The notes under the pieces: generated by a model
Seen by the model: only the letters and a program-made list of their open reading frames with translations
Database searches by the model: none
What the model was told of the DNA's origin: nothing
NCBI RefSeq assembly: GCF_016924835.1
Contig: NZ_CP070480.1
Location: forward strand, 186,001-250,000
Origin: Rothia sp. ZJ932
Lineage (GTDB): Bacteria; Actinomycetota; Actinomycetes; Actinomycetales; Micrococcaceae
Length of the DNA stretch: 64,000 nucleotides
Direction: 5' to 3'
Made by a program: the position numbers and the translations under genes
In this document: positions 4,192-56,889 of the stretch, piece by piece
Numbering within the stretch: the first letter of the stretch is position 1
Layout of the letters: each line of letters begins with the position of its first letter

Positions 4192-4240
4192 GCAAGGTCG
4201 AGCACGGACGCGTGCTGTTGGCTCAGATGGGCGCGGTATG

Positions 4241-4286
4241 GCGCGGGGTGAGAAACGTTGTGAGTTTCTCATCCCGCGCTTTTCTT
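4241..4286. terminator. Bidirectional terminator between serS and the glutamate-synthase-like gene
   Basis: Inverted repeat with arms 4241-4256 and 4264-4279 (15 of 16 pairs, GCGCGGG at the base), followed on the + strand by TTTTCTTT. The neighbouring genes converge here. Confidence 0.8.
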
Positions 4287-5869
4287 TATTCGCTTGTGGC
4301 GGTGTGTTTGCTGACTGAACGCTGGTGCTGTTTGTGCGATACGGCGAAGGAGCGCGCGTCCGCCCTGTCCCACCAGCTTTGCCAGTCTTCGTGGGCGGTG
4401 CCGGTGAGGAATGATTCGGGTTCTAGCCAGTTGTAGATTTGGGCGAGGGACTGGCTGTGGGTGACGCTGGTGCGGTGCATGACGTGCTCGGGGCTGAGAT
4501 CGTCGAAGGAGCGCAGACCCATGGACGCGAGCAGGCGGGTTGCTGAATGAATGACGCCCGCGTGGTAGTTGCGAATACGGGTGCCTTTGTCATCAACGTC
4601 GAGGCTGCGCACGAGCCAGGGGTTTTGGGTGGCGACGCCGGTGGGGCAGGTGTTTTCGTGGCATTGCTGGGTTTGCAGGCATCCGGCTGCCATCATCATG
4701 CCGCGTGCTGAATTGGTGAAGTCAGCACCGAGCGCGATGCGTTTGATGATGTCCGCGCCGCCGGCGATCTTGCCTGCCGCGCCGATAACGATTTTGTCGC
4801 GCAGACCTGCGGCAACGAGGCTGTTTTGCAGAATATAGAGACCATCGGTGAGGGTGGTGCCCACGGTGTCTTCAAATTCGATGGGTGCCGCGCCGGTTCC
4901 ACCTTCGGCGCCGTCCACGGTGATCCAGTCGGGGGTGATGCCGGTTTCGAGCATTGCTTTGCAGAGCGAGAGCACCTCAATGGTTGAGCCAACGCAGAAC
5001 TTCAAACCGATGGGCTTACCCCCGGAAAGTTCGCGCAGCTGCTTGACGAAGTGCATGAGTTCTAGCGGGGTGGAGAACGCTGAGTGCGCCGAGGGGCTTA
5101 GGCAGTCTTCGCCTTCGGGGACGCCTCGGGCAGCAGCAATTTCTGCTGTCACCTTAGCTGCCGGCAACAGACCGCCCATGCCCGGTTTGGCGCCCTGAGA
5201 GAGCTTGACCATGATGCCCTTAACCTGCGGGTACGCTGCCTTTTCGGCAAAGATTTCAGGGCTGAAGTTGCCTTCTTCATCGCGGCAACCAAAGTAACCA
5301 GAGCCGAACTCCCACATAAGATCAGCATCGTATTTCAGGTGGTAGTCGGTAATGCCGCCCTCACCGGTTTCTTGCGCGAAACCACCCATAGCCGCTCCCT
5401 TGTTCATCGCCAATACTGCATTCGATGAAAGCGAACCGAAGCTCATCGACGAGATATTGAAAATAGAAATGTCATAGGGCTGGGTGCAGTCGGGTCCGCC
5501 CAAACGTACTTTGGGCGCGTCCTTCATCTGCTCCACCGGTGCCATTGTATGCCGCAGCGTCTCATAACCCTCGGTCTGGGGTTTGCGTTCGGTGCCGAAG
5601 GCTTTCTCACCGCCCAAACCCTTGGAATACTCGTAAATCATGGAGCGGGTGTCGCGGTCAAAGGGACGACCGTCGTAGTTATTTTCGATGAAGTATTGGT
5701 GCATGGGCGCTCGCATGTGCTCCATGAAGTAGCGGCCGTGACCGAGCACGGGAAAACTGCGCAGCAGAGAGTGCTTTTTCTGCGTCAAGTCGTGGGCTGC
5801 CACCGCGGTGACAGCGGCGCCGGTTGCCACCGCAACACTGCGTAGAATCTTGGGCAAGTGTGTAGTCAT
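4286..5869 (-). CDS. FMN-binding glutamate synthase family protein
   Basis: Contains the FMN/glutamate-synthase barrel of GltB-type enzymes but no amidotransferase domain. Seen: the flavin-site stretch VDGAEGGTGAAP, the phosphate-binding IVIGAAGKIAGGADI, and a cysteine cluster QTQQCHENTCPTGVATQNP like the iron-sulfur region of glutamate synthase. An N-terminal hydrophobic segment (SVAVATGAAVTAVAAHD) suggests membrane association. I chose ATG at 5869 (MTTHLPKIL, 527 residues); a GTG at 5902 would add 11 residues. Such stand-alone homologues are common and their reaction is often unproven, so glutamate synthesis is only a possibility. It is transcribed alone, converging on serS. Confidence 0.85.
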   Translation of the reverse strand: MTTHLPKILRSVAVATGAAVTAVAAHDLTQKKHSLLRSFPVLGHGRYFMEHMRAPMHQYFIENNYDGRPFDRDTRSMIYEYSKGLGGEKAFGTERKPQTEGYETLRHTMAPVEQMKDAPKVRLGGPDCTQPYDISIFNISSMSFGSLSSNAVLAMNKGAAMGGFAQETGEGGITDYHLKYDADLMWEFGSGYFGCRDEEGNFSPEIFAEKAAYPQVKGIMVKLSQGAKPGMGGLLPAAKVTAEIAAARGVPEGEDCLSPSAHSAFSTPLELMHFVKQLRELSGGKPIGLKFCVGSTIEVLSLCKAMLETGITPDWITVDGAEGGTGAAPIEFEDTVGTTLTDGLYILQNSLVAAGLRDKIVIGAAGKIAGGADIIKRIALGADFTNSARGMMMAAGCLQTQQCHENTCPTGVATQNPWLVRSLDVDDKGTRIRNYHAGVIHSATRLLASMGLRSFDDLSPEHVMHRTSVTHSQSLAQIYNWLEPESFLTGTAHEDWQSWWDRADARSFAVSHKQHQRSVSKHTATSE

Positions 5870-6054
5870 GAGTATCAGGTCTTTCTCGCAAGTGCCGCTC
5901 ACCGTCGGTGAGGGGCTAAGGGCTATCTAAAAGTAGATTACCCTTAGTTTCTACCTAGCTGGCGCAGGTGAACTAGGGAACATTACCATTCTTTTGGCAC
6001 CTCCAAAGATGTAGGCTTAAGCCCTGGGTTTCAGATCGGCAGAAAGCTATAACA

Positions 6055-6993
6055 ATGACGTTTTTCTCTTGCGTACAGGCACACTCACGCGGTGTCACTG
6101 GGATTTTGACAGCATCTGCTCTGCTACTTGCGGGGTGCTCTTCGACGGATACGCCCGGCGCAGGTTCGGCGGCGGGCAGTGAGGACGCCCCGCGCGTCCT
6201 GACAACCTTTACAGTGGTTGAGGATATCGCTCAGAACGTTGCCGGTGAGCACCTGGTGGTGGAGTCTTTGATTAAGCCCGGTGTCGAGGTGCATGAGTAT
6301 GACCCGACGCCCAGCGACATTCGCCGGGTGCATGATGCCGATGTGGTGCTTAATAACGGGTTGAACCTTGAGGCATGGTTTGAGCGGTTCACCCGCGAGG
6401 CCGATGTTCAGCATGTCACGGTGAGCGAGGGCGTTGAGGTTATTGATATCGCCGGTGAGCCGGGCACCCCTAATCCGCACGCGTGGATGAGCCCCAGCAA
6501 CGTGCAGGTTTACGTTGATAATATCGCTGAAACTTTTGCGGAACTTGACCCCGAGCACGCCGATGAGTTCCGCGCGAATGCAGATACCTACAAACAGCAG
6601 TTACAGCAGGTGCGCGATGATCTGGTGCAGGGTCTTGAGAGGTTAGAGCCGAACCAGCGTACCTTGGTGACCTGCGAGGGCGCGTTTAGCTACCTGGCAC
6701 AGGATGCGAGTTTGAATGAGGCGTACCTGTGGCCGGTGAACTCTGAGGAGCAGGCTACTCCGGCGCAGGTCGCTGAGGTTATTGAGACCGTTCGTGAGGG
6801 CAAGATTGCCGCGGTGTTCTGTGAGTCCACAGTGAATCAGGACGCGATGCGGCAGGTCGCTGAGGCTACCGGGGCAGAGTTCGGCGGCACCCTGTACGTG
6901 GATTCTTTATCTGATGAGGGCGGGCAGGTGCCTACCTATTTGGATCTGTTGAAACATGACGCTGAGCTGATTCGTCAGGGGCTAACGCGTTGA
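6055..6993 (+). CDS. Metal ABC transporter substrate-binding lipoprotein
   Basis: Cluster A-I binding protein of the ZnuA/TroA/SitA type that captures Mn, Zn or Fe outside the membrane. The N terminus has a signal peptide ending in the lipobox LLAGC (cysteine about residue 28). Metal-ligand positions visible are the histidine in VEVHEYDPTPSD, the histidine in GTPNPHAWMSPSN, the glutamate region LVTCEGAFSYLA and the late aspartate in VDSLSDEGG. Length is 312 residues, normal. It is first in a three-gene operon whose genes overlap or nearly touch. The region 5940-5990 contains short inverted bases that could be a metal-repressor site, but I cannot name one. The exact metal is not readable. Confidence 0.9.
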   Translation: MTFFSCVQAHSRGVTGILTASALLLAGCSSTDTPGAGSAAGSEDAPRVLTTFTVVEDIAQNVAGEHLVVESLIKPGVEVHEYDPTPSDIRRVHDADVVLNNGLNLEAWFERFTREADVQHVTVSEGVEVIDIAGEPGTPNPHAWMSPSNVQVYVDNIAETFAELDPEHADEFRANADTYKQQLQQVRDDLVQGLERLEPNQRTLVTCEGAFSYLAQDASLNEAYLWPVNSEEQATPAQVAEVIETVREGKIAAVFCESTVNQDAMRQVAEATGAEFGGTLYVDSLSDEGGQVPTYLDLLKHDAELIRQGLTR

Positions 6994-7763
6994 TGGCGGA
7001 TTCTGTTGCTGATCGGGCCTTGGCAACGCGTCCTGTCTTAGAGGTGCAGGCGGTGAGCGTGCGTTACCGTGAGGTTCAGGCGTTAGAGCGGGCAACGTTG
7101 AGCTTGAACCGTGGCACAATCTGCGGGCTGGTGGGTATGAACGGCTCGGGCAAATCAACTCTTTTTAAAGCGATTATGGGCGTGGTGCCGTCCGTGGCGG
7201 GCACTGTTCAGATTGCCGGTATGCACCCTGCGAAAGCGCGGGCGCAGGGGATCGTCTCGTACGTACCGCAGAGTGAAGATATCGACTGGACTTTCCCCGT
7301 ATCTGTGCGCGATGTGGTGTCGATGGGTGTTTATCAAAACCTGGGGTTTACCCGGCGTATGAACGCGCAAGCGCACGCTCGGGTTGATCGGGCTTTGGCG
7401 CAGATTGAGCTGACTGATTTCGCCGACCGTCAGATTGGTGAGCTTTCGGGCGGTCAGCGCAAGCGTGCTTTCGTGGCGCGCGCTATTGCCCAGCAGGCGC
7501 AGCTATTTCTGCTGGACGAGCCTTTTGCAGGTGTTGATAAGCGCAGTGAGGCAATGCTGGTGGAGGTTCTTAAAGACCTGGCTGCTGCCGGTGCCACGGT
7601 GCTTGTCTCTACCCACGATCTGCAGTCGCTGAGTCAGATGGCTGATGAGGTGGCTTTGCTCCGAAAGACTATTGTGATGCACGGGGAACCGCAGCAGGTG
7701 CTGGCTCCCGAAAATCTGGTGACGGCTTTCGGCATGAACGTTCTAGGTGGGGAAGGGCAGTAG
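6993..7763 (+). CDS. Metal ABC transporter ATP-binding protein
   Basis: Energises import through the partner permease. Walker A is GLVGMNGSGKSTLFKA, the signature is LSGGQRKRAFVARAIA and Walker B is LFLLDEPFAGVD, with the switch histidine in STHDLQSL. Length is 256 residues from ATG at 6993, which shares its A with the preceding stop codon, so translation is coupled to the binding protein. A TTG three bases earlier is an alternative start. The permease follows after two bases. Family membership is sure; the metal (Mn, Zn or Fe) is not. Confidence 0.93.
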   Translation: MADSVADRALATRPVLEVQAVSVRYREVQALERATLSLNRGTICGLVGMNGSGKSTLFKAIMGVVPSVAGTVQIAGMHPAKARAQGIVSYVPQSEDIDWTFPVSVRDVVSMGVYQNLGFTRRMNAQAHARVDRALAQIELTDFADRQIGELSGGQRKRAFVARAIAQQAQLFLLDEPFAGVDKRSEAMLVEVLKDLAAAGATVLVSTHDLQSLSQMADEVALLRKTIVMHGEPQQVLAPENLVTAFGMNVLGGEGQ

Positions 7764-7765
7764 TA

Positions 7766-8623
7766 ATGGAATTTTTGATTGATCCCCTTGCCTACGATTT
7801 TATGGTGCGTGCCCTAGCGGTGACCGTTCTTGCCGCGCTGACCTGCGCCCTGCTCTCATGCTGGTTGGTACTAATGGGCTGGTCGCTGATGGGGGACGCG
7901 ATTTCTCATGCGGTGTTGCCCGGCGTAGTGCTCGCCTACATTTTTGGTGCGCCCTTTTCAGCAGGTGCGCTTGTGGCTGCCTTGGTTGCGGTGGGCTTGA
8001 TTGGGCTGGTGCGCCGCGGTAGCCCGCGCATCCGTGAGGACGCAGCAATCGGTATTGTTTTTACCACCCTGTTTGCCTTGGGGCTGGTGCTGATATCAGT
8101 GACGCCCTCGAACACTGATTTACACCATATTCTTTTCGGTAACGTGCTGGGCGTTTCTGCGGGTGATCTGCTACAGGTGGGCGGTTTGGGTGCGCTGGTT
8201 GCCCTGGTACTGCTTATCAAGCGCAAAGACCTCACTCTGTACGCTTTTGATCCGGGGTACGCACACGCTATTGGCATGCGTCCGCACCTTTTGGGGGCTC
8301 TGCTGCTGGTGGTGCTTGCGCTAACCAATGTGATTGCCCTGCAGGTGGTGGGCGTGGTGTTAGTGGTTGCCATGCTCATTATTCCCGGTGCAACGGCTCG
8401 GATGCTGACCAACCGTTTTCCGCGGATGCTGCTGGTTTCGTGCGCGGTTTCTGTGGTGGGGTCTGTCACCGGGCTCTACGCCAGCTACTATCTGGATGTT
8501 TCCCCCGGCGGTGCCGTGGTCTTACTCCTTGGCGGTCTTTTCTTCATCGTCTATCTTTTCAGCCCCACCTACGGGGTCATCAGCTCGTACCTGAGATCTA
8601 AGGGCACCTACGGTCGCTTCTAG
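7766..8623 (+). CDS. Metal ABC transporter permease
   Basis: Integral membrane protein of the ABC-3 (ZnuB/MntB) family with about eight hydrophobic segments over 285 residues. Conserved family stretches seen are SLMGDAISHAVLPGVVLAYI near residue 40 and VVGVVLVVAMLIIPGATAR near residue 195. It starts two bases after the ATPase gene and ends the operon; an 8-bp perfect stem-loop lies at its stop codon. Together with the two preceding genes it makes a complete importer. Confidence 0.93.
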   Translation: MEFLIDPLAYDFMVRALAVTVLAALTCALLSCWLVLMGWSLMGDAISHAVLPGVVLAYIFGAPFSAGALVAALVAVGLIGLVRRGSPRIREDAAIGIVFTTLFALGLVLISVTPSNTDLHHILFGNVLGVSAGDLLQVGGLGALVALVLLIKRKDLTLYAFDPGYAHAIGMRPHLLGALLLVVLALTNVIALQVVGVVLVVAMLIIPGATARMLTNRFPRMLLVSCAVSVVGSVTGLYASYYLDVSPGGAVVLLLGGLFFIVYLFSPTYGVISSYLRSKGTYGRF

Positions 8624-8645
8624 AGGTTGCGAGGAATACCTCTAG
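8620..8645 (+). terminator. Stem-loop at end of metal transporter operon
   Basis: CTAGAGGT (8620-8627) pairs perfectly with ACCTCTAG (8638-8645) across a 10-nt loop that contains GCGAGGAA. There is no T tract, so intrinsic termination is uncertain; the left arm includes the stop codon. Confidence 0.5.
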
Positions 8646-8871
8646 GAGAGCGCCGGAGAAGTTTACTTCGCCTCAAAATGCCGTGCTGGGGGGAGAGATA
8701 AAAGTACCCGTGTATGGCACTTTCGGGCGTCATAAGGTGAAGCAACCGGTGAAAGGGGCAACGCGCGTCCCCCTACCGCCAGTCTCAACACCCCCTTTTC
8801 TTCATGTACCGTTTACCACCGCGTTACGTGCAGGTAAGCGATAGGCTTAGAAGATAGTAGACACTGAAGAA

Positions 8872-9732
8872 ATGGTGAACACAATGATTGAAAAGATGCG
8901 CGTACACCCGCCCGTCACCAGCGACTGGGCGAAAGAGGACGCCACCTATCTGGTGGCAATTGATATCGACGGTACCCTGGTGCATCACGACGGCACCATG
9001 AGCGAGACCGTCAAAAAGGTGGTACAAGAGGTGATGGCGGCGGGGCACCACGTCATTGTTTCCACCGGACGCTCGCGCCAAGCTGCTTTCCCCATTGCCC
9101 AAAAGCTGGGTCTGACCGACGGGTACATGGTCACCTCAAACGGTGCGGTCACCCTAGAACTCAACCCCCGCCTTATTGACGGTTGCCGGGTAGCAGACAG
9201 CGTTGTTTTCAACCCCAGCCGAGCTCTGCACCTTCTTGCCGAGAAAGTGCCCTACGCCCAGATGGCGCTGGAATCAGAAGACGGCACTATCTATGCCACC
9301 GCTAATTTTCAGGACGGCTCCTTCGGTGCAACTTCAGTGCCTGTCACCAAGGATCAGCTGCTGCAGATGGACGCCGCCACGCGCGTCGTTATTTTCGCTG
9401 AAGACGTCGATCAGGACGAGTTCAAGCAGGCTATCTATCAGGCTGGTCTGCACGGTGTGAACTACGCGGTGGGGTGGAGCGCATGGCTCGATATTGCCGC
9501 CCATGGTGTTTCTAAAGCATCAGCCCTGGAGCAGTTGCGCCGCCAACTGGGGGTGGATCCCGCTTACACTATCGCTATTGGCGATGGGTATAACGATAAA
9601 GAGATGATTCACTGGGCAGCGCGAGGCGTCGCCATGGGCGAGGCACCCGATGAGGTTATCGCCGTGGCGAAAGAAGTGACCCTGAGTGTTTATGAGGACG
9701 GGGTCGCCCACACCCTGGCAAGCCTGCTGTAG
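8872..9732 (+). CDS. HAD-IIB (Cof-type) phosphatase
   Basis: A cytoplasmic haloacid-dehalogenase-like phosphatase, probably acting on sugar phosphates or flavin-type phosphates. All four motifs are visible: motif I AIDIDGTLVHHDG (nucleophile Asp), motif II VSTGRS, motif III lysine in HGVSKASALEQL, and motif IV IGDGYNDKEMI. The C2 cap lies between motifs II and III, as in Cof proteins. Length is 286 residues. Start ATG at 8872; a second ATG five codons in is possible. It stands alone, with a terminator-like hairpin 31 bp after its stop. Confidence 0.88.
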   Translation: MVNTMIEKMRVHPPVTSDWAKEDATYLVAIDIDGTLVHHDGTMSETVKKVVQEVMAAGHHVIVSTGRSRQAAFPIAQKLGLTDGYMVTSNGAVTLELNPRLIDGCRVADSVVFNPSRALHLLAEKVPYAQMALESEDGTIYATANFQDGSFGATSVPVTKDQLLQMDAATRVVIFAEDVDQDEFKQAIYQAGLHGVNYAVGWSAWLDIAAHGVSKASALEQLRRQLGVDPAYTIAIGDGYNDKEMIHWAARGVAMGEAPDEVIAVAKEVTLSVYEDGVAHTLASLL

Positions 9733-9762
9733 GAGGCGTCCGTGCTACTGAGAGGGCTGATG

Positions 9763-9790
9763 TTTCAGATATACCTGAAATTTTCTTTCT
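9763..9790 (+). terminator. Terminator after HAD phosphatase gene
   Basis: TTTCAG (9763-9768) pairs with CTGAAA (9775-9780), followed by a T-rich run TTTTCTTTCT. Short stem but well placed. Confidence 0.55.
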
Positions 9791-9897
9791 AGGGTGGGGA
9801 GGAGGGCGACCGGCGCAGACTAGGTAGGTCTTAACCAGCGTATAGAGCGCATTGCCCATCAACTGGTGCAGCAGATTCTCACACGAAAGGACGCTCG

Positions 9898-10080
9898 ATG
9901 AAACAGGCATTTATCGGGGCTCTGCTCTATGACCTCGATTGCGGGTTCTGCGAAAAAAGCGCCTCTTTTACCCAAAAATACCTGAATCTTGCGGCAGAGG
10001 TGAAGCCTGCCTACCCCGACGAGCTGGTTGCCTACCGTGTAGACCGGGCGCGCTTTGAGAGCGCCATCCCTTATGAATAA
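9898..10080 (+). pseudogene. DCC/DUF393 thiol-disulfide oxidoreductase-like gene, 5' half
   Basis: The first 56 or so residues carry the family hallmark LLYDLDCGFCEKS (the DxxCxxC region, thioredoxin-like site). Full-length members have roughly 120-140 residues; here the frame ends at 10080 just after ESAIPYE, where the AT-rich island begins. The missing C-terminal half lies at 14561-14794 in the same orientation and resumes with IPFVTAERQ. The gene was therefore split by the island. The ribosome binding site GAAAGGA is intact. The truncated product keeps the cysteine pair but probably does not fold. Confidence 0.8.
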
Positions 10081-10083
10081 CCC

Positions 10084-10112
10084 TCACACAATCCAAATAA
10101 ACCCTTGTGTGA
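10084..10112 (+). repeat. Stem-loop at left edge of the island
   Basis: TCACACAA (10084-10091) pairs perfectly with TTGTGTGA (10105-10112) over a 13-nt loop. It sits directly after the truncated DCC frame and could end that transcript or be a remnant of the inserted element's terminus. Confidence 0.5.
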
Positions 10113-10246
10113 TGTAGATTGCTATGGTAAATTTTTTCCAATGAGGCATAAATACAATAGTTAATTCCAGGAAAATTAAGTAAATATTTAGCTGATACCT
10201 GTCTATTACATTTGATGTGTAGTCCTCATGGAAAGGAGGTGAAAAA

Positions 10247-10324
10247 ATGAACCAAGAACTAAATCTCGACAACGTTGAAATGATTCTTGAAGAAGTTACT
10301 GAGAAAACTCCGGCGCTGATTTAG
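10247..10324 (+). CDS. Putative RiPP precursor peptide, 25 residues
   Basis: A 25-codon frame (begins MNQELNLDNVEM, ends EKTPALI) preceded by AAAGGAGGTGA, a near-perfect ribosome binding site spaced correctly before ATG at 10247. The product is strongly acidic in its first 20 residues (leader-like, amphipathic pattern LxLxxVxMILEEV) and ends in a short neutral tail TPALI. It contains no Cys or Ser; the only hydroxyl residues are two Thr near the C terminus. A 12-bp stem-loop follows, then two dehydrogenase genes, an exporter and a peptidase, all same strand. This is the usual order precursor, attenuator, tailoring enzymes. Precursor status is inference; I recognise no known family. An alternative is a leader peptide controlling the operon. 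Confidence 0.6.
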   Translation: MNQELNLDNVEMILEEVTEKTPALI

Positions 10325-10363
10325 CAGGGAAACGTTATTCGTTAGAACGCAATAATTTATAGT

Positions 10364-10397
10364 GTGTCGCATTTTGGATATCTCTAAAATGCGACAC
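10364..10397 (+). terminator. Perfect 12-bp stem-loop between peptide gene and dehydrogenases
   Basis: GTGTCGCATTTT (10364-10375) pairs exactly with AAAATGCGACAC (10386-10397) over a 10-nt loop, and is followed by AATTTCCC rather than a long T run. Such hairpins between a peptide gene and its modification genes often act as partial terminators that make the peptide transcript more abundant. Confidence 0.7.
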
Positions 10398-10417
10398 AAT
10401 TTCCCATTAAGGAAGAA

Positions 10418-11253
10418 ATGAAAAACAATACGAAAAAGAGAGATGGGAAAAACTGGGATGGCGTCAGGCTTATAGATACACAAGAATATCTTGGAACTAC
10501 CCATTCAATGACTACTCATCTAATGGTCAATCATTAGATAAAAGACAAATGATGGATTATGAAAAAATTCAAAATGATACGAAAAGATACATTGAACCTA
10601 AAAGCGATAACTATATAGATTTACCTAATTTCGATGAATCTCTTCAATAGTAAGTGAACCATCTTTTGACGATTTAGATATATTGGAAAAGGCAAAAGTT
10701 GTGTCGGTATTAGTAGCATTTCCAAGAGGTAAATATCCGTCTAAAACAAATGGAACTGATCACCTAAGCAGAACCAGTCCTTCAGGGGGGAGCGCGGCAT
10801 CCTTCAGAGCTTTATTTAATTGTAGTAGAAAGCGAATTTTCTGGAGTTTATCAAGTTAGTATTGGCACCGAAGACCTTAGAAAAATTTCTGAAGCTCCTA
10901 CAGTAGAGAAACTTAAGAAAAATATTCCTGGAGCTTTTAGATTACCTGTTACTCCTAAATTAATTTTTATAGTTGCATCAGACTTCGAGAGGAATATGTA
11001 TAGGTACAGGGAGCCTCGCACTTTTAGGACTTTATTTTATGATGCAGGGCATCTAGGAGGCCTAGTGGAATCTCTGATGGATACCGGGAATACAATTTCT
11101 CATGGGCACCAAGGATTTAATGATAGTTATTTGCAAAGAATTATATCTTCTGAGAGTCTTGCATCGGAAAGCCCCATATACATCATTTCTGCCGGATACA
11201 GAATAGCTAATTCCAAAGAAGTACAAGTAGGAAAGTCGTTTATATCAAAATGA
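10418..11253 (+). pseudogene. SagB-type flavin dehydrogenase, frameshifted
   Basis: Reading across frames gives a continuous SagB-like (nitroreductase-fold, FMN) dehydrogenase of about 278 residues. It starts MKNNTKK, shifts near 10437 to ERWEKLGWRQAYRYT and YIDLPNF, shifts near 10645 to SEPSFDDLDILEKAK, then shifts at the six-G run 10785-10790 to reach the family signature RTSPSGGARHPSELYLIV and a C terminus ending at 11253. Each break is explained by a one-base change: loss of A in an A run, loss of one base near CTCTTC, and gain of G in the G run. SagB enzymes oxidise azolines or other peptide bonds in modified peptides. Either a real pseudogene or a base-calling artefact; the last part overlaps the next start by ATGA. 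Confidence 0.7.
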
Positions 11254-12215
11254 AACTAACAATTATTTCTCAGTATAAATTTAATAATGGTAAAGTTTTC
11301 CTAAACCCACTTGGTTCATCAAAAAAATATACAATTGATGCTAAAAAACTTGCAATTTCAATTTCAGAAAAACATTTCGATTTTCGAGGATTAGATAAGG
11401 ACATTATTAGTTATAAAAAATGGTACGAAAATGGCTGGGGTGAAAGTGTCCCATTTTACTTGTCAACACTTGACGGCAAATATGAGGATGCTGGTTTCAA
11501 CTTTAATGATGTGCATAAAAAAGTATTGGCTGGCTATGCAGATAAAGATGAATTTCCGTCTGAATTAATCCCAAATTCAGAAACTGTATATGAATTAAAA
11601 AATGATATAGATCAGAATTTTTCCAGAAAAGATATTCTTGTTAACAGAAGAACTACTTACATCCCTCAAGGTTCGCGTTTAAAGTACTCTGATATTTCTC
11701 ATATTTTACTAGACGGGTTCGATAAATTAAGTAAATTTAGAACGATAGACAACCAAAAGAATCCCTTAAATGCATTAGTAAATTTTGGGCCGTCTTTGGA
11801 TGTATATGTTGTTGTTTACTCTGTTGAAGGGATGGATGAAGGAATCTATAGATATGATTTGGTCAATAAAAATTTATTGCAGATTGATAACAAAGCAGAT
11901 CGTAAAGAATTTCAAGAAGCCTTAGTCGGCCAGCCTGCACCCTTAACATCTAGCGTATCTGTTATTTATGTATCTGACATAAAAAGACATCAGTGGAGGT
12001 ACCGTCATGAACGTGCACTACGTGGCTTGTGGATTGATACTGCAAAAGTTACAAATGAGTTGCTTTGGAAGTTGGCATCACTGGCAATAACTCCGCATAT
12101 AACACCTGCATTCAGGGATTCTAGAATCCTTGGATTATTGGGACTACCTGCTGATCTTAGTTATCTACCTGTATATGCTGTATCATTCAAGGGGTCAGAG
12201 AAAAACCATGAATAG
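11250..12215 (+). CDS. Second SagB/nitroreductase-like dehydrogenase
   Basis: An intact 321-residue protein. The C-terminal two thirds resemble SagB-type dehydrogenases: RRTTYIPQGSRLKYSDISHI (the usual RRSxRxF-like entry to the fold) near residue 130, VYVVVYSVEGMDEGIYRYD near 190, and a late block KRHQWRYRHERALRGLWID followed by ITPHITPAFRDSRILGLLG. The first 120 residues are divergent and may recognise the substrate peptide. ATG at 11250 overlaps the stop of the first dehydrogenase (ATGA), so the two are translationally coupled and may form a heterodimer. No YcaO cyclodehydratase or E1-like partner is present in the island, so classical azole formation is unlikely; dehydrogenation of another kind is a guess. 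Codon use is AT-rich like the rest of the island. Confidence 0.7.
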   Translation: MKLTIISQYKFNNGKVFLNPLGSSKKYTIDAKKLAISISEKHFDFRGLDKDIISYKKWYENGWGESVPFYLSTLDGKYEDAGFNFNDVHKKVLAGYADKDEFPSELIPNSETVYELKNDIDQNFSRKDILVNRRTTYIPQGSRLKYSDISHILLDGFDKLSKFRTIDNQKNPLNALVNFGPSLDVYVVVYSVEGMDEGIYRYDLVNKNLLQIDNKADRKEFQEALVGQPAPLTSSVSVIYVSDIKRHQWRYRHERALRGLWIDTAKVTNELLWKLASLAITPHITPAFRDSRILGLLGLPADLSYLPVYAVSFKGSEKNHE

Positions 12216-13524
12216 CAAGAATAAAACTAAAAATAATTTACTTAAATATGTCTGGCCTTCTCTTCTTGCAACTTTAGGAAGTATAGTTGTTGGTTTAACA
12301 GATTCAGCATTAATTTCTTATTACTCAACTTATGCTCTTGCGGGTGTATCCTTAGGAGCTTCATTCTATGAGCTTCCAGTAAATTGTATTCTCGGTGCCT
12401 TAATGGCCTATAGAATTCTCGCACCACGAGTAAACTCTGATTCGAGTCACGAAACTATTGGAATAAAACTATTTTTTAAAATATTTGTTCCTATTTCGCT
12501 GTTTATTTCTTTTGTGGGTATAGTATTTTCAATACTGATTTATCGAAATAATTCTGATCCTGTTTGGACCGCTGCACTTTTATACTTTGCTGCTAGAGTA
12601 CCTAGTCTCGTTGCCGAAACTATCTCAACACTTGTGGCAATACAATTGGTTTCTTGGGGTAAAACAAAAGTTCCAATTATCATATTCTGTATAACTGCTC
12701 CATTTAATTTAATTATTGATCTTTTTCTTATCTACGGATTATTTTTCTTTCCTGAGTTAGGAGTTTTTGGGGCAGGTTTAGGAAGCGCCATCGCTTCATT
12801 CATCCCTCTTGCATACCTTTTCATGGTATTCAGGAAGGAAAAGAAAAAATACAATAAAAAATCAGAGATCATCGTTAGTAACTATAAAGGTTGGGAAAAA
12901 ATTTCTTTACCTTCACTTGGTTCTGCTTTCGTGGATTACGGAGGTAATATAGTTTTTACAGCATTGATTTCTGCTGCTGGAATTATTGAACTGGCGGGAA
13001 TGAGATTTGCTATTCAATTCCATATAGTTATTTTTATAATAATATCGAGCTTCTCTGGTGGAATTTTATTTGTGCTGGGCAGTAAGCATAAAGAAGAAAT
13101 GCGAAATGAAGATTTTATATCTATAAAAAATTATATAGATAAGGTATTTGCTAAAGTTTTTGTCTTTACTCTTATTCTATTTATTTCTTTCTGTGTAATT
13201 TTTGGGCGCTTTGTATCTCCAAACGAGGAGGTTGTTCATGCATTTTACAAACTAGCTATATTCTTAGTACTTATCATTCCTTTTGCCTGTATTGCGTACT
13301 CAAATATTACGCTGCAGCGCTTTTATGGAATTACTTTAGATGACTTCAAATCCAACTCTTTGGCAGTCTGGGGAGTTCAAATTCCTGTTGCGCTTCTTTT
13401 GTTAAACATGTTTTCTGGTATCTGGCCTTTTACTGGACTCCTTGGGTACTGGATTTTTAGAGCATTCTGGAGTAGGAAGCAGGTTAGAACTAGGTTTTAT
13501 AAGGCGTGTGATCTAGAAAATTGA
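12208..13524 (+). CDS. MATE-family multidrug/peptide exporter
   Basis: About 438 residues with roughly twelve hydrophobic segments arranged as two halves, as in MATE efflux proteins. Near the N terminus WPSLLATLGSIVVGLTDSALI matches the MATE pattern for helix 1-2 (P..x..l......vD...v). It overlaps the upstream dehydrogenase by eight bases and the downstream peptidase by four, so all are one operon. A longer frame from 12130 exists but is shadowed by the dehydrogenase; ATG at 12208 (MNSKNKTKN) is chosen. In this setting the likely job is export of the modified peptide or self-protection; that is inference. Lysine-rich and AT-rich coding unlike the host genes. Confidence 0.8.
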   Translation: MNSKNKTKNNLLKYVWPSLLATLGSIVVGLTDSALISYYSTYALAGVSLGASFYELPVNCILGALMAYRILAPRVNSDSSHETIGIKLFFKIFVPISLFISFVGIVFSILIYRNNSDPVWTAALLYFAARVPSLVAETISTLVAIQLVSWGKTKVPIIIFCITAPFNLIIDLFLIYGLFFFPELGVFGAGLGSAIASFIPLAYLFMVFRKEKKKYNKKSEIIVSNYKGWEKISLPSLGSAFVDYGGNIVFTALISAAGIIELAGMRFAIQFHIVIFIIISSFSGGILFVLGSKHKEEMRNEDFISIKNYIDKVFAKVFVFTLILFISFCVIFGRFVSPNEEVVHAFYKLAIFLVLIIPFACIAYSNITLQRFYGITLDDFKSNSLAVWGVQIPVALLLLNMFSGIWPFTGLLGYWIFRAFWSRKQVRTRFYKACDLEN

Positions 13525-14470
13525 AAAATATTGCATATACGAACCCTATAGATCATCTAGTTTTTGGTGAGTGGTGGAAATATGACTACGAAGGTGTCCT
13601 TCATGGCCTGAATAGAGATAAAATAATTTTCTACAAAAGCCTACTTGCTGAAAATTTATCGAACCCAGAACTCTATCATTTTGGTAAAAGTAAACCGCTT
13701 AATAATAGTAAGTTAGAACTTAGTTACTCATTTATAATTAATTTGTTGAATTTACTTGAAGATGAATTCTTGGAATCTCGAGAAATTGTAGCTAACAACT
13801 ATAATAGATATTTAGATAGATGGGAATTCCTTGGCGATACCCCTCTGGAAGTTATTGATTCATTGAAAAAAATTTATAAATATAACCTCCCTGAAAATCA
13901 AGCAAGAATTATCGATGAAACAAATTTTTTATTTTCACCGCCTGAGCTAAATAATAGTGTTGATTTAGCTTGTTTTGTGCCAATGCCTGACAGTCATCAG
14001 CCAGTTATTTTGTTAAACCCTGGTATTATTAAAAACTTTAGCAAGGATAAGATGTTTAGAATGAAGATGTCATTAATTTTTGCTCATGAATAGGGCATGC
14101 TCTGCAGCATCGTCTACAGGTTATTGATAACACTGATGGGATGTTTCTTGACTATGAGCTCATGGAGGGGTGCGGCATTGTTGCTGAGAGTTCTTTAAGG
14201 TTATTTGGTGATTTTGGTAAAGCTGCTGCTACTTTATATAAAGTCAAACGCATTCTCCCTTTTGCTTTTACTATGCTTGAAAATCCATTAATCTATCAAA
14301 AGATTATTTCATTTAAGGAAATTTGGCCTGATTTCTTTTGCTCAGATGATTTTAATATTTTCAGACGATCTACCCGAAGACATTCAGAAGGAATATTGAA
14401 AACATATTTAGAGTTTAATAATTCATCAAGCACTTGTGAAATTACTCCATGGAAAACCATCACCAGATAA
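13521..14470 (+). pseudogene. Gluzincin-type zinc peptidase split at its active site
   Basis: The first frame (13521-14093, TTG start overlapping the MATE stop) ends MKMSLIFAHE-stop. A -1 step at 14090 gives HEIGHALQHRLQ and continues in frame 2 to 14470, with a second conserved block ELMEGCGIVAESS about 30 residues later. HExGH plus a downstream EGxGxxAE is a gluzincin arrangement, resembling the DUF885/M32-like folds, where the later Glu is the third zinc ligand. One missing A or T between GAA and TAGGG would restore HEIGH or HELGH and a product of about 316 residues. Role in the island is probably leader removal or peptide degradation (inference). Sequencing error, recent decay and phase variation are all possible. 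Confidence 0.65.
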
Positions 14471-14560
14471 ACTGTAGTCTCAGTCAAATTTAAATAACTA
14501 TGGATATGCGTAATAATATTTATTTTACAATATCTCTAGTAGCATGTAAGAGTAATCTTC

Positions 14561-14794
14561 CAGCTGCCGAGAACGATCCCTTTTGTAACCGCCGAACGGC
14601 AGCTAGCATACGGGGCACTGGGTATCGGGCTTGCCCTACGTATTAGCGGCACCGCCTGGGTACGCTGGGCGGGGGCGCTTATGGTGAGCTGGCCCGTGCG
14701 TCCTATCGCTGAAAGAGTCTATGCGCTCATTGCTACCAACCGTTACCGCTTACCCGGTGCTTCCGGGGCGTGCGCCCCACCGCCGTCTTTCTAG
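14561..14794 (+). pseudogene. DCC/DUF393 gene, 3' half
   Basis: In the frame of ATC at 14576 the sequence reads IPFVTAERQLAYGALGIG, then RISGTAWVRWAGALMVSWPV and VYALIATNRYRLPG, ending at TAG 14792-14794. This is the conserved C-terminal half of DCC-family proteins, including the helical tail with the VYxxIAxNRxRLPG pattern. It lacks a start codon and a ribosome binding site and pairs with the 5' half at 9898-10080. Base composition returns to host level here. Exact upstream limit is uncertain. Confidence 0.75.
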
Positions 14795-14873
14795 TCTGCT
14801 TGCTTCATAAAGATTCGGTACTCACCGGTAAACTCTAGAATAATGGGTAACTGAGGTGAACAGGGGTGCTAAC

Positions 14874-15800
14874 GTGGGCGGTATTTTAGAGGGCTTTGCC
14901 ATTATCGGCATCGTGATTCTGGTGGGTTACTGTGTAGCGCGCCTGAAGATTTTACCCAAGGACGCAGGTTTCACCCTCAACCGCTTTGCCTTCTTCGTGG
15001 CGATGCCCGCCCTCATGTATACTACCCTCGCAACCGCCGATGTCAGTATCGTTTTTTCCTCCAGATTACCGGTGGCTGCCTTGAGCTTCACTCTTGTTGC
15101 AGGGCTTTACACGCTGATTTTCGGTGTGTTACTGCGGCGAGGGGTAGGGCGCGTGACCATGGGAGCAGTCTCTTCTGCCATGCTGAATGCCAATAATATG
15201 GGTGTGCCCGTGGCGGTCTATATCTTTGGTGATGCCGCGCAGATTGCCCCGATTCTACTCTTCCAAATTATTGTGGTGACACCCATTTTGCTGGCAATCA
15301 TGGACGTTATCGCCAACGGCAGGCTCAGGCTCAAAGACGTCCTCACCCAGCCTGTGCGTAACCCCCTAGTGATTGCCTCCATGCTGGGAGTTACTACCAA
15401 CCTGGTGGGTTTTCAAACCCCCAGCGTTGTCATGGAACCCATGGAAATTTTGGGTGGAGCAGGTATACCCCTGGTGCTCGTTTCATTCGGTATGTCTTTG
15501 CGCGGTAGCACTCCGCTGACGGTGGCTGACCAGCGCCTTGAAACTATTACTGCGGCGCTGTTCAAGGTAGTGCTCATGCCCCTGGTCGCCTACCTCTTAG
15601 GCCGGTTCGCTTTTGACCTGCAACCCGATGATCTTATTGCCGCCGTCATGCTAGCAGCCCTACCCACCGCACAGAACGCCTACAACTACGCCTCGCGCTA
15701 TCAACAATCTGTGATTCTGGTGCGCGATATCGTCCTGGTCTCAGCCTGCATATCTCTACCGGCAATGCTGGTGATTTCCTGGCTGCTGCACAGCGTTTAG
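14874..15800 (+). CDS. AEC-family transporter (auxin efflux carrier-like)
   Basis: Membrane carrier with about ten hydrophobic segments in two inverted halves; family features include the early GYCVARLKILPKDAGFTLNRFAFF region, TMGAVSSAMLNANNMGVPVA with the conserved N-N-G at the first-half break, and PTAQNAYNYASRYQ in the second half. Bacterial AEC proteins export or exchange malate and other organic anions; substrate unknown here. I prefer GTG at 14874 (AGGGG seven bases upstream); GTG at 14856 would add six residues. It converges with the next gene, whose stop codon overlaps its end by four bases. Confidence 0.85.
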   Translation: MGGILEGFAIIGIVILVGYCVARLKILPKDAGFTLNRFAFFVAMPALMYTTLATADVSIVFSSRLPVAALSFTLVAGLYTLIFGVLLRRGVGRVTMGAVSSAMLNANNMGVPVAVYIFGDAAQIAPILLFQIIVVTPILLAIMDVIANGRLRLKDVLTQPVRNPLVIASMLGVTTNLVGFQTPSVVMEPMEILGGAGIPLVLVSFGMSLRGSTPLTVADQRLETITAALFKVVLMPLVAYLLGRFAFDLQPDDLIAAVMLAALPTAQNAYNYASRYQQSVILVRDIVLVSACISLPAMLVISWLLHSV

Positions 15801-30471: not shown

Positions 30472-30532
30472 GTGACCACGAAAAGTAATGCTGACCGTAC
30501 ATCTCGCGGTCAGCATTACTTTTCGTGGTCAC
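30472..30532. terminator. Perfect 26-bp stem-loop between folE and folP
   Basis: Arms 30472-30497 and 30507-30532 are perfectly complementary over 26 bp with a 9-nt loop; a further direct copy of GTGACCACGAAAA lies at 30452-30464. There is no T tract downstream. It is far longer than an ordinary terminator; it may stop transcription, or be a repeat element. A folP promoter would lie just after it. Confidence 0.75.
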
Positions 30533-56842: not shown

Positions 56843-56889
56843 AGGCTTATTCATAGGGGGGTGTGTCCTAACCCCCTATGAATAAGCCT
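56843..56889. terminator. Perfect 18-bp hairpin containing TTATTCATA
   Basis: Arms 56843-56860 and 56872-56889 are perfectly complementary around an 11-nt loop; T residues (CATTTTT) follow shortly. The arm carries TTATTCATAGGGG, a variant of the 13-mer at the MITE ends and at the DCC break. Confidence 0.75.

Follow-up and report, generated by a model that had tools for sequence, protein, structure and literature searches.

Lying within a 64-kb stretch of the Rothia sp. ZJ932 genome (the window: G000:C1:186001-250000, part of a 2.26-Mb genome; positions below are counted from its first letter) is an AT-rich block that is likely to be a foreign, horizontally acquired cassette for a ribosomally synthesized and post-translationally modified peptide (RiPP), now in decay. 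When whole, the cassette would have worked without YcaO and would have been built on a split, heterodimeric SagB enzyme, its short peptide being made, modified and exported. The block contains a frame of 25 amino acids (aa), a hairpin, and genes for two SagB-type proteins, a MATE protein and an HExGH protein:

10230..10242, + strand: Shine-Dalgarno region, GGAAAGGAGGTGA
10247..10324, + strand: candidate precursor peptide, 25 aa, MNQELNLDNVEMILEEVTEKTPALI, assigned from the frame and a motif common to Thermoplasmata peptides
10363..10398, + strand: hairpin with a perfect 13-bp stem, separating the precursor frame from SagB-1; possible terminator or processing element
10411..11253, + strand: SagB-1 (PSGG-type half), broken, N-terminal domain absent; pieces about 10411-10650, 10640-10835 and 10785-11253
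11250..12215, + strand: SagB-2 (RR[ST]-type half), 321 aa, open
12208..13524, + strand: MATE-family exporter, 438 aa, open; PF01554 38.6 bits, above cut-off
13521..14470, + strand: putative zinc peptidase (HExGH), broken; pieces 13521-14093 and 14093-14470

Short peptides and SagB pairs in other genomes

The 25-codon frame, for which an initial annotation made from the letters alone had noted a near-perfect ribosome binding site, begins with ATG behind the Shine-Dalgarno sequence AGGAGGT. Among 11 frames listed in the 64 kb (18-60 codons, match of at least 6 bases), it is the only one with this 7-base match. The peptide has no Cys, Ser or His, two Thr and a single proline. The motif [ILV]EE[IV]x4P[AT] matches once in the 127,996 six-frame codons of the window, at this frame. 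It was drawn from two versions of a Thermoplasmata peptide, with Leu added at the first position after the window peptide had been seen; with only Ile or Val allowed there, the window peptide does not match. Shuffled versions of the window peptide match in 116 of 500,000 cases. In 1.52 million codons of other loci there are 13 matches, 12 of which are the same peptides (the window's own included) from overlapping loci, and one lies in an unrelated 224-residue frame.

The initial annotation had proposed looking for the gene set, and for short frames beside it, in other genomes. Both SagBs and an exporter are indeed found in Thermus, Anoxybacillus, Thermoplasmata and two haloarchaea. A tblastn search of plasmids revealed on a Thermus thermophilus plasmid the order SagB, SagB, ThiF, MATE and a 519-aa protein with HEIVPGH (a putative metallopeptidase), which is the order of the window apart from the added ThiF. 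The 519-aa protein occupies the same place as the window peptidase and matches PF05960 (DUF885) with 24.1 bits, below the cut-off of 32.4. The MATE proteins of window and Thermus align at 24% over 401 aa (E 2e-16). The final piece of SagB-1 scores 34 bits with the SagB-1 profile and is identical to Thermus at 17 of 20 residues (MYRYREPRTFRT..DAGHL). In Anoxybacillus amylolyticus, insertion-sequence genes separate SagB-1 from SagB-2, and a third SagB-like protein and an MFS-like membrane protein are also encoded there; in the stretch of A. thermarum that was read, SagB-2 is broken and SagB-1 absent.

Scanning genome contigs with a profile from a three-sequence SagB-2 alignment gave 111 stretches, five of which were confirmed: a Thermoplasmata metagenome-assembled genome (MAG), A. 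thermarum, two Streptomyces loci and a Heimdall MAG that has YcaO. The Thermoplasmata MAG carries a SagB-1/SagB-2 pair with an MFS-like gene, and pairs occur in further genomes of its order. Full-length SagB-2 is present in 4 of 194 genomes sampled from its phylum (any match at 1e-20 in 15 of 194); within its order, 5 of 117 genomes have SagB-1. In Halorussus the pair is adjacent, with an MFS gene about 3 kb off; in Natrinema both SagBs and an MFS gene lie in one region, the SagBs not adjacent.

Inspected and not counted as pairs were loci of Maritalea, Roseateles, Streptomyces, Nonomuraea, Priestia and the Heimdall MAG. On the Maritalea myrionectae plasmid (L074), a 25-aa frame at 4237-4314 with AAGGAG stands 60 bases ahead of a single SagB followed by an MFS gene; judged by eye, it is not homologous to the other peptides. 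Geobacillus-like tandem SagBs in two genomes of the order of Anoxybacillus (G1136 and G967, loci L099 and L100) were likewise not counted as a split pair, because each copy has both flavin mononucleotide (FMN) motifs. An MFS-like gene follows the tandem at both loci, and no convincing short frame was found near L099.

Short frames with ribosome-binding sites stand beside the genes of Thermus, Anoxybacillus, Thermoplasmata and Halorussus. In Thermus (52 aa) and Anoxybacillus (39 aa) the site reads AGGAGGT, and a strong hairpin follows the frame. The Thermoplasmata peptide, which shares the motif of the window frame, has 23 aa, is preceded by GGAGGT, is divergent from SagB-1 and is present in all five genomes, in two versions identical at 13 of 23 residues. 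Halorussus has two copies of 30 aa, which agree at 87 of 93 bases and stand after the genes, on the opposite strand. Upstream of SagB-2 on a Natrinema pallidum plasmid (L073, 10036-10122, minus strand) is a 28-aa frame, IEEVDDEEAPAL, which carries IEEV...APAL and HQHH and is possibly leaderless. An encoded precursor peptide conserved beside modifying enzymes, the mark of a RiPP, is thus found, with caveats for Natrinema, Thermus and Anoxybacillus.

Folding of four bacterial loci, of which three carry the pair, showed a hairpin behind the peptide in each. In the window its folding z is -8.1. The initial annotation had given it a perfect 12-bp stem; the stem is perfect and has 13 bp, but is not rare in itself, since it is one of eight perfect inverted repeats listed in the window (arms of at least 11 bp, loop 3-20). 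Longer ones lie at 30472-30532 (26-bp arms) and 56843-56889 (18-bp arms).

Split FMN motifs and the proposed chemistry

Divided between the paired SagBs are two motifs of the FMN site. In an alignment of 13 paired SagBs, PSGG is retained in all six SagB-1 sequences, which lack RR[ST]xR in the corresponding position, and RR[ST] is retained in all seven SagB-2 sequences, which lack PSGG. Not among these 13 are two broken copies (the window's SagB-1 and one from A. thermarum), a third SagB-like protein of Anoxybacillus and near-identical Thermoplasmata copies. Scored with the final pattern, none of the 13 has both motifs, against 56 of 64 other SagBs (four of the 64 being proteins of Geobacillus-like tandems); three of the 13 score neither owing to variant letters, and one has an R match elsewhere. 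The 56 is a low count, because seven of the eight remaining controls have RRSTR with a PCSGAT loop.

For the window SagB-2, the TIGR03605 model gives 48 bits against a cut-off of 78.4, and PF00881 gives 15.7 bits against 23.5; PF00881 is above cut-off in its SagB relatives, whose alignment supports an FMN nitroreductase fold. In the thiazoline oxidase BmdC, one FMN site combines R145, R146, S147 and R149 of one protomer with residues 182-186 of its partner (PMC8795117). A HMMER alignment places BmdC 182-186 on ASAGG, the counterpart of the PSGG loop (chain numbers are 2 ahead of the paper's), and Tyr stands at the place of BmdC's proposed catalytic Tyr260 in six of six SagB-1 and five of seven SagB-2 sequences. 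Judged by BmdC and by PDB 3EO7, a single chain with two SagB-like halves, SagB-1 and SagB-2 look like complementary halves of one heterodimeric enzyme. As the motifs come from opposite protomers in BmdC and are split here, one live and one dead FMN site would be predicted in the dimer.

From the anatomy of the cassette and its relatives, a mechanism can be proposed for the cassette when whole. The 25-aa peptide would be made in excess, with the hairpin behind it limiting read-through, and the N-terminal domain of one of the SagBs (SagB-1 or SagB-2) would bind its leader. The two SagBs would depend on each other as an obligate heterodimer sharing a single composite FMN site, to which SagB-2 would contribute the RR[ST] phosphate grip and SagB-1 the PSGG loop. 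This heterodimer would act directly on the C-terminal tail, dehydrogenating one of its residues without a YcaO step. Judging by gene content, the HExGH protein may trim the leader and the MATE protein may export the product. That these genes process and export the peptide had been suggested by the initial annotation; the occurrence of pairs with an exporter and short peptides elsewhere agrees with this, but in the window two of the four genes are broken, and the exporter and peptidase roles are putative.

Which residue would be modified is a separate matter. The initial annotation favoured the two Thr and the tail TPALI; Thr was dropped as nothing supports it; the residue common by position to the window and Thermoplasmata peptides is proline. 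Exactly one proline is present in the window, Thermoplasmata, Halorussus, Natrinema and Thermus peptides. Alone among coded residues, proline already has a five-membered, azoline-like ring, so that no cyclodehydratase would be needed. This suggests, as a speculative and rather improbable proposal, a YcaO-free RiPP class, both bacterial and archaeal, with a heterodimeric SagB that dehydrogenates the ring of a single proline behind an EE[VI] leader motif. The product would then carry dehydroproline or pyrrole, and may be a metallophore in some hosts. The Anoxybacillus peptide, which has no proline, speaks against it.

Cassette borders, origin and probable decay

The cassette has a G+C content of 34.3%, compared with 55.1% in the rest of the window, and interrupts a native DCC1-like (PF04134) gene, each junction being marked by one copy of an imperfect 10-base repeat, ATCCCTT(A/T)TG:

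9898..10075, + strand: DCC1-like (PF04134) gene, native, 5' half, assigned from the whole homologue in relative G030
10066..10075: imperfect direct repeat of 10 bases, left copy, ATCCCTTATG, target-duplication or att-like
14576..14585: 10-base repeat, right copy, ATCCCTTTTG
14586..14794, + strand: DCC1-like gene, interrupted, 3' half

The homologue in G030 is unbroken (L069:4891-5265, 124 aa, PF04134 42.6 bits), and by eye G028 and G020 have frames resembling the gene; the 60-aa 5' half by itself has no Pfam match. No Rfam family reached its gathering score over 9700-14900. Searched with SagB-2, a set of 59 genomes, the window's own included, contains the protein only in the window's genome, the one further match being weak (26% over 122 residues, in G016). 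Among viral contigs scanned with SagB-2, five stretches matched and none was confirmed. Near the island, and outside it, are metal-type ABC transporter genes at 6990-8623, which match manganese/iron and zinc models, all below cut-off.

The four protein genes had been annotated as overlapping and AT-rich. The overlaps (SagB-1/SagB-2 4 bp, SagB-2/MATE 8 bp, MATE/peptidase 4 bp) and the base composition hold, but SagB-1 and the peptidase are broken. Frame changes near positions 10645 and 10786 split SagB-1 into three pieces that occupy two frames, and between the hairpin and its frame no counterpart of the homologues' first ~100 residues was seen by eye. The peptidase, annotated as one gene, changes frame near 14090, within the HExGH motif, which had been read across both frames; neither piece has a meaningful family match, and a plasmid search with the first gave no match. 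The MATE protein, which is open, scores 92 bits with TIGR00797, below the cut-off of 147.

Sequencing errors in a cassette that is intact in the strain would be another explanation of the frame changes, and one of the three does lie at a run of six G. No frame change was found, however, in native window genes compared with 263 open reading frames of three relatives (128 with hits), a screen covering 35.7 kb of the window under full-length matches of at least 40% identity, and the N-terminal domain of SagB-1 is also absent. With the native genes free of frame changes, real decay is likelier than poor sequence, and we regard the error explanation as unlikely, though not negligible. The cassette is best read as decaying in this strain, which probably makes no product, since not all four genes are intact.

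Several observations weigh against the reading of the block as a YcaO-free RiPP cassette with a split SagB. With the N-terminal domain missing from the window SagB-1, leader binding is uncheckable there, and in relatives the matches of this domain to recognition domains are weak (NF033536, E 0.0034, and PF04738, E 0.0017, in one of six members each); its match to a PqqD-type chain is also weak (E 0.23) and stands among other winged-helix chains. The third Arg of RR[ST]xR, Arg in most relatives, is Tyr in the window SagB-2 and Gln in Anoxybacillus. A first motif pattern, stricter than the final one and lacking its position rule, found both motifs in only 35 of 64 controls (10 R only, 19 P only) and in three of 13 paired SagBs, the latter through matches overlapping the loop or lying elsewhere. 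The peptides of Thermus and Anoxybacillus have no EE[VI]x4P motif, in those of Halorussus and Natrinema the proline follows EEV at a different spacing, and the Natrinema frame has no Shine-Dalgarno sequence. Neither piece of the window peptidase is significantly similar to the Thermus protein, which has HEIVPGH rather than an HExxH motif. Identities of SagB-2 to its relatives are only about 25-31%. A close relative of the island was not found in any of the samples scanned, which overlap and each represent a small part of their group: the 59 genomes above, 396 Actinomycetota genomes, and samples drawn around A. thermarum at the level of order (299), class (398) and phylum (398). In one 398-genome sample around A. 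thermarum, 66 of 398 matched; among the matches listed there, those outside A. thermarum start at profile position 120 or later and cover the dehydrogenase part only.

Alternatives and known systems

A modified peptide that binds nickel or zinc and is exported by the MATE or MFS protein would make the system a metallophore pathway. On a plasmid of Priestia sp. J2 (L124, 5764-8285 onward), a 29-aa frame, a hairpin, one complete SagB, an MFS gene and nikABCD follow in a row, and in Natrinema nikBC-type ABC genes lie a few kb from SagB-1 and the MFS gene, beside a peptide with HQHH. Against this, the window cassette has no metal-uptake gene (the ABC genes at 6990-8623 being outside it), its peptide has neither His nor Cys, and no metal-uptake gene is annotated in the Thermus stretches or was recognised by eye in the Thermoplasmata stretches. 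The name nik, moreover, is an annotation of a transporter family that also carries peptides. A metal-binding product is a possibility to which we give little weight. The Priestia set hints at a metal-binding branch and is not transferable to the window. Its hairpin has a z of -2.7, with 4 of 200 shuffles equally good, and its upstream genes encode a GTP-binding protein, a TIGR03943 protein and a permease.

A short frame followed by a strong hairpin ahead of an operon also has the look of an attenuator, and MATE proteins commonly export small molecules. The frame and hairpin could then be a regulatory leader peptide for oxidoreductase and efflux genes, with the SagB-like proteins acting on a small molecule. 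In Thermoplasmata, however, the peptide gene is divergent, and in Halorussus both copies follow the genes on the opposite strand, placements that make attenuation impossible there. The motif is kept at the amino-acid level across domains of life, and the related ThcOx and BmdC have peptide-clamp or RiPP recognition element (RRE)-like domains (PMC5108345, PMC8795117). We consider attenuation improbable for the window.

Least probable is an ordinary azole-forming RiPP, of the thiazole/oxazole-modified microcin (TOMM) or linear azole-containing peptide (LAP) type, with its YcaO partner elsewhere in the genome. SagB-type enzymes are known for the oxidation step that follows a YcaO cyclodehydratase and acts on its azolines, and the same-genus relative G016 has adjoining YcaO and SagB genes. 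The whole genome of the window, however, has no YcaO match (the control search was positive in 5 of 14 named genomes), which makes azole formation unlikely; the initial annotation, which had seen no YcaO in the window and no Cys or Ser in the peptide and proposed a chemistry other than azole formation, is borne out on each point, the last as likely. The G016 locus (L112, G016:C1:1300000-1311000), where YcaO (PF02624, 240 bits), a 277-aa SagB, a methyltransferase and two unassigned proteins stand in a row at 5844-10525, is an azole-type peptide locus, unlike the window's.

A search of titles and abstract starts in the open-licence PubMed Central literature found no description of a SagB pair with this gene set, which does not show its absence from print. 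If the preferred reading is true, peptides of 23-30 residues would be modified by a split SagB without YcaO, a line of peptide chemistry of its own that spans bacteria and archaea. Loci of this kind would be expected to escape genome mining that relies on YcaO, LanB or radical SAM enzymes as markers.

The azoline dehydrogenases SagB, McbC and ThcOx of TOMM/LAP and cyanobactin pathways resemble the window proteins in a probable FMN nitroreductase fold and in an operon with a short peptide; ThcOx has peptide-clamp domains (PMC5108345). The window differs in having a genome without YcaO, two unlike subunits with split FMN motifs and a peptide without Cys or Ser. BmdC, of bacillamide synthesis, is alike in its RRE-like and Ox domains and an FMN site between protomers (PMC8795117), and differs in being a homodimer whose substrate is carried on a non-ribosomal synthetase. 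The cyclodipeptide oxidase AlbAB is a hetero-oligomeric flavin dehydrogenase requiring both subunits (PMC11055893), as proposed for the SagB pair; AlbB, however, is a helix bundle, not a nitroreductase fold, and the substrate is a cyclic dipeptide.

Among peptide systems, one Thermoplasmata peptide matches the mycofactocin precursor model MftA (TIGR03969) weakly, over 11 residues around EEVS (E 0.099, 12.5 bits, cut-off 25); the window peptide does not match this model, and mycofactocin enzymes were not searched for. The Os1348-1351 cluster of Pseudomonas sp. Os17 combines a small protein, a gluzincin-type peptidase and a SagB-type dehydrogenase and has no SagC/SagD homologues (PMC7726476); it differs in its single SagB, 85-aa precursor and acetyltransferase.

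Closest in architecture to the proposed heterodimer is PDB 3EO7, a putative nitroreductase of Anabaena variabilis that is the best PDB match of both the SagB-1 query and the SagB-2 profile, with an alignment beginning at residue 81. Its N half has PSAGG and its C half RRSTR; it differs in that the halves are fused and no substrate is known, and the BmdC paper describes the structure as unpublished (PMC8795117). If the split SagB acts as proposed, a function would be suggested for this fold.

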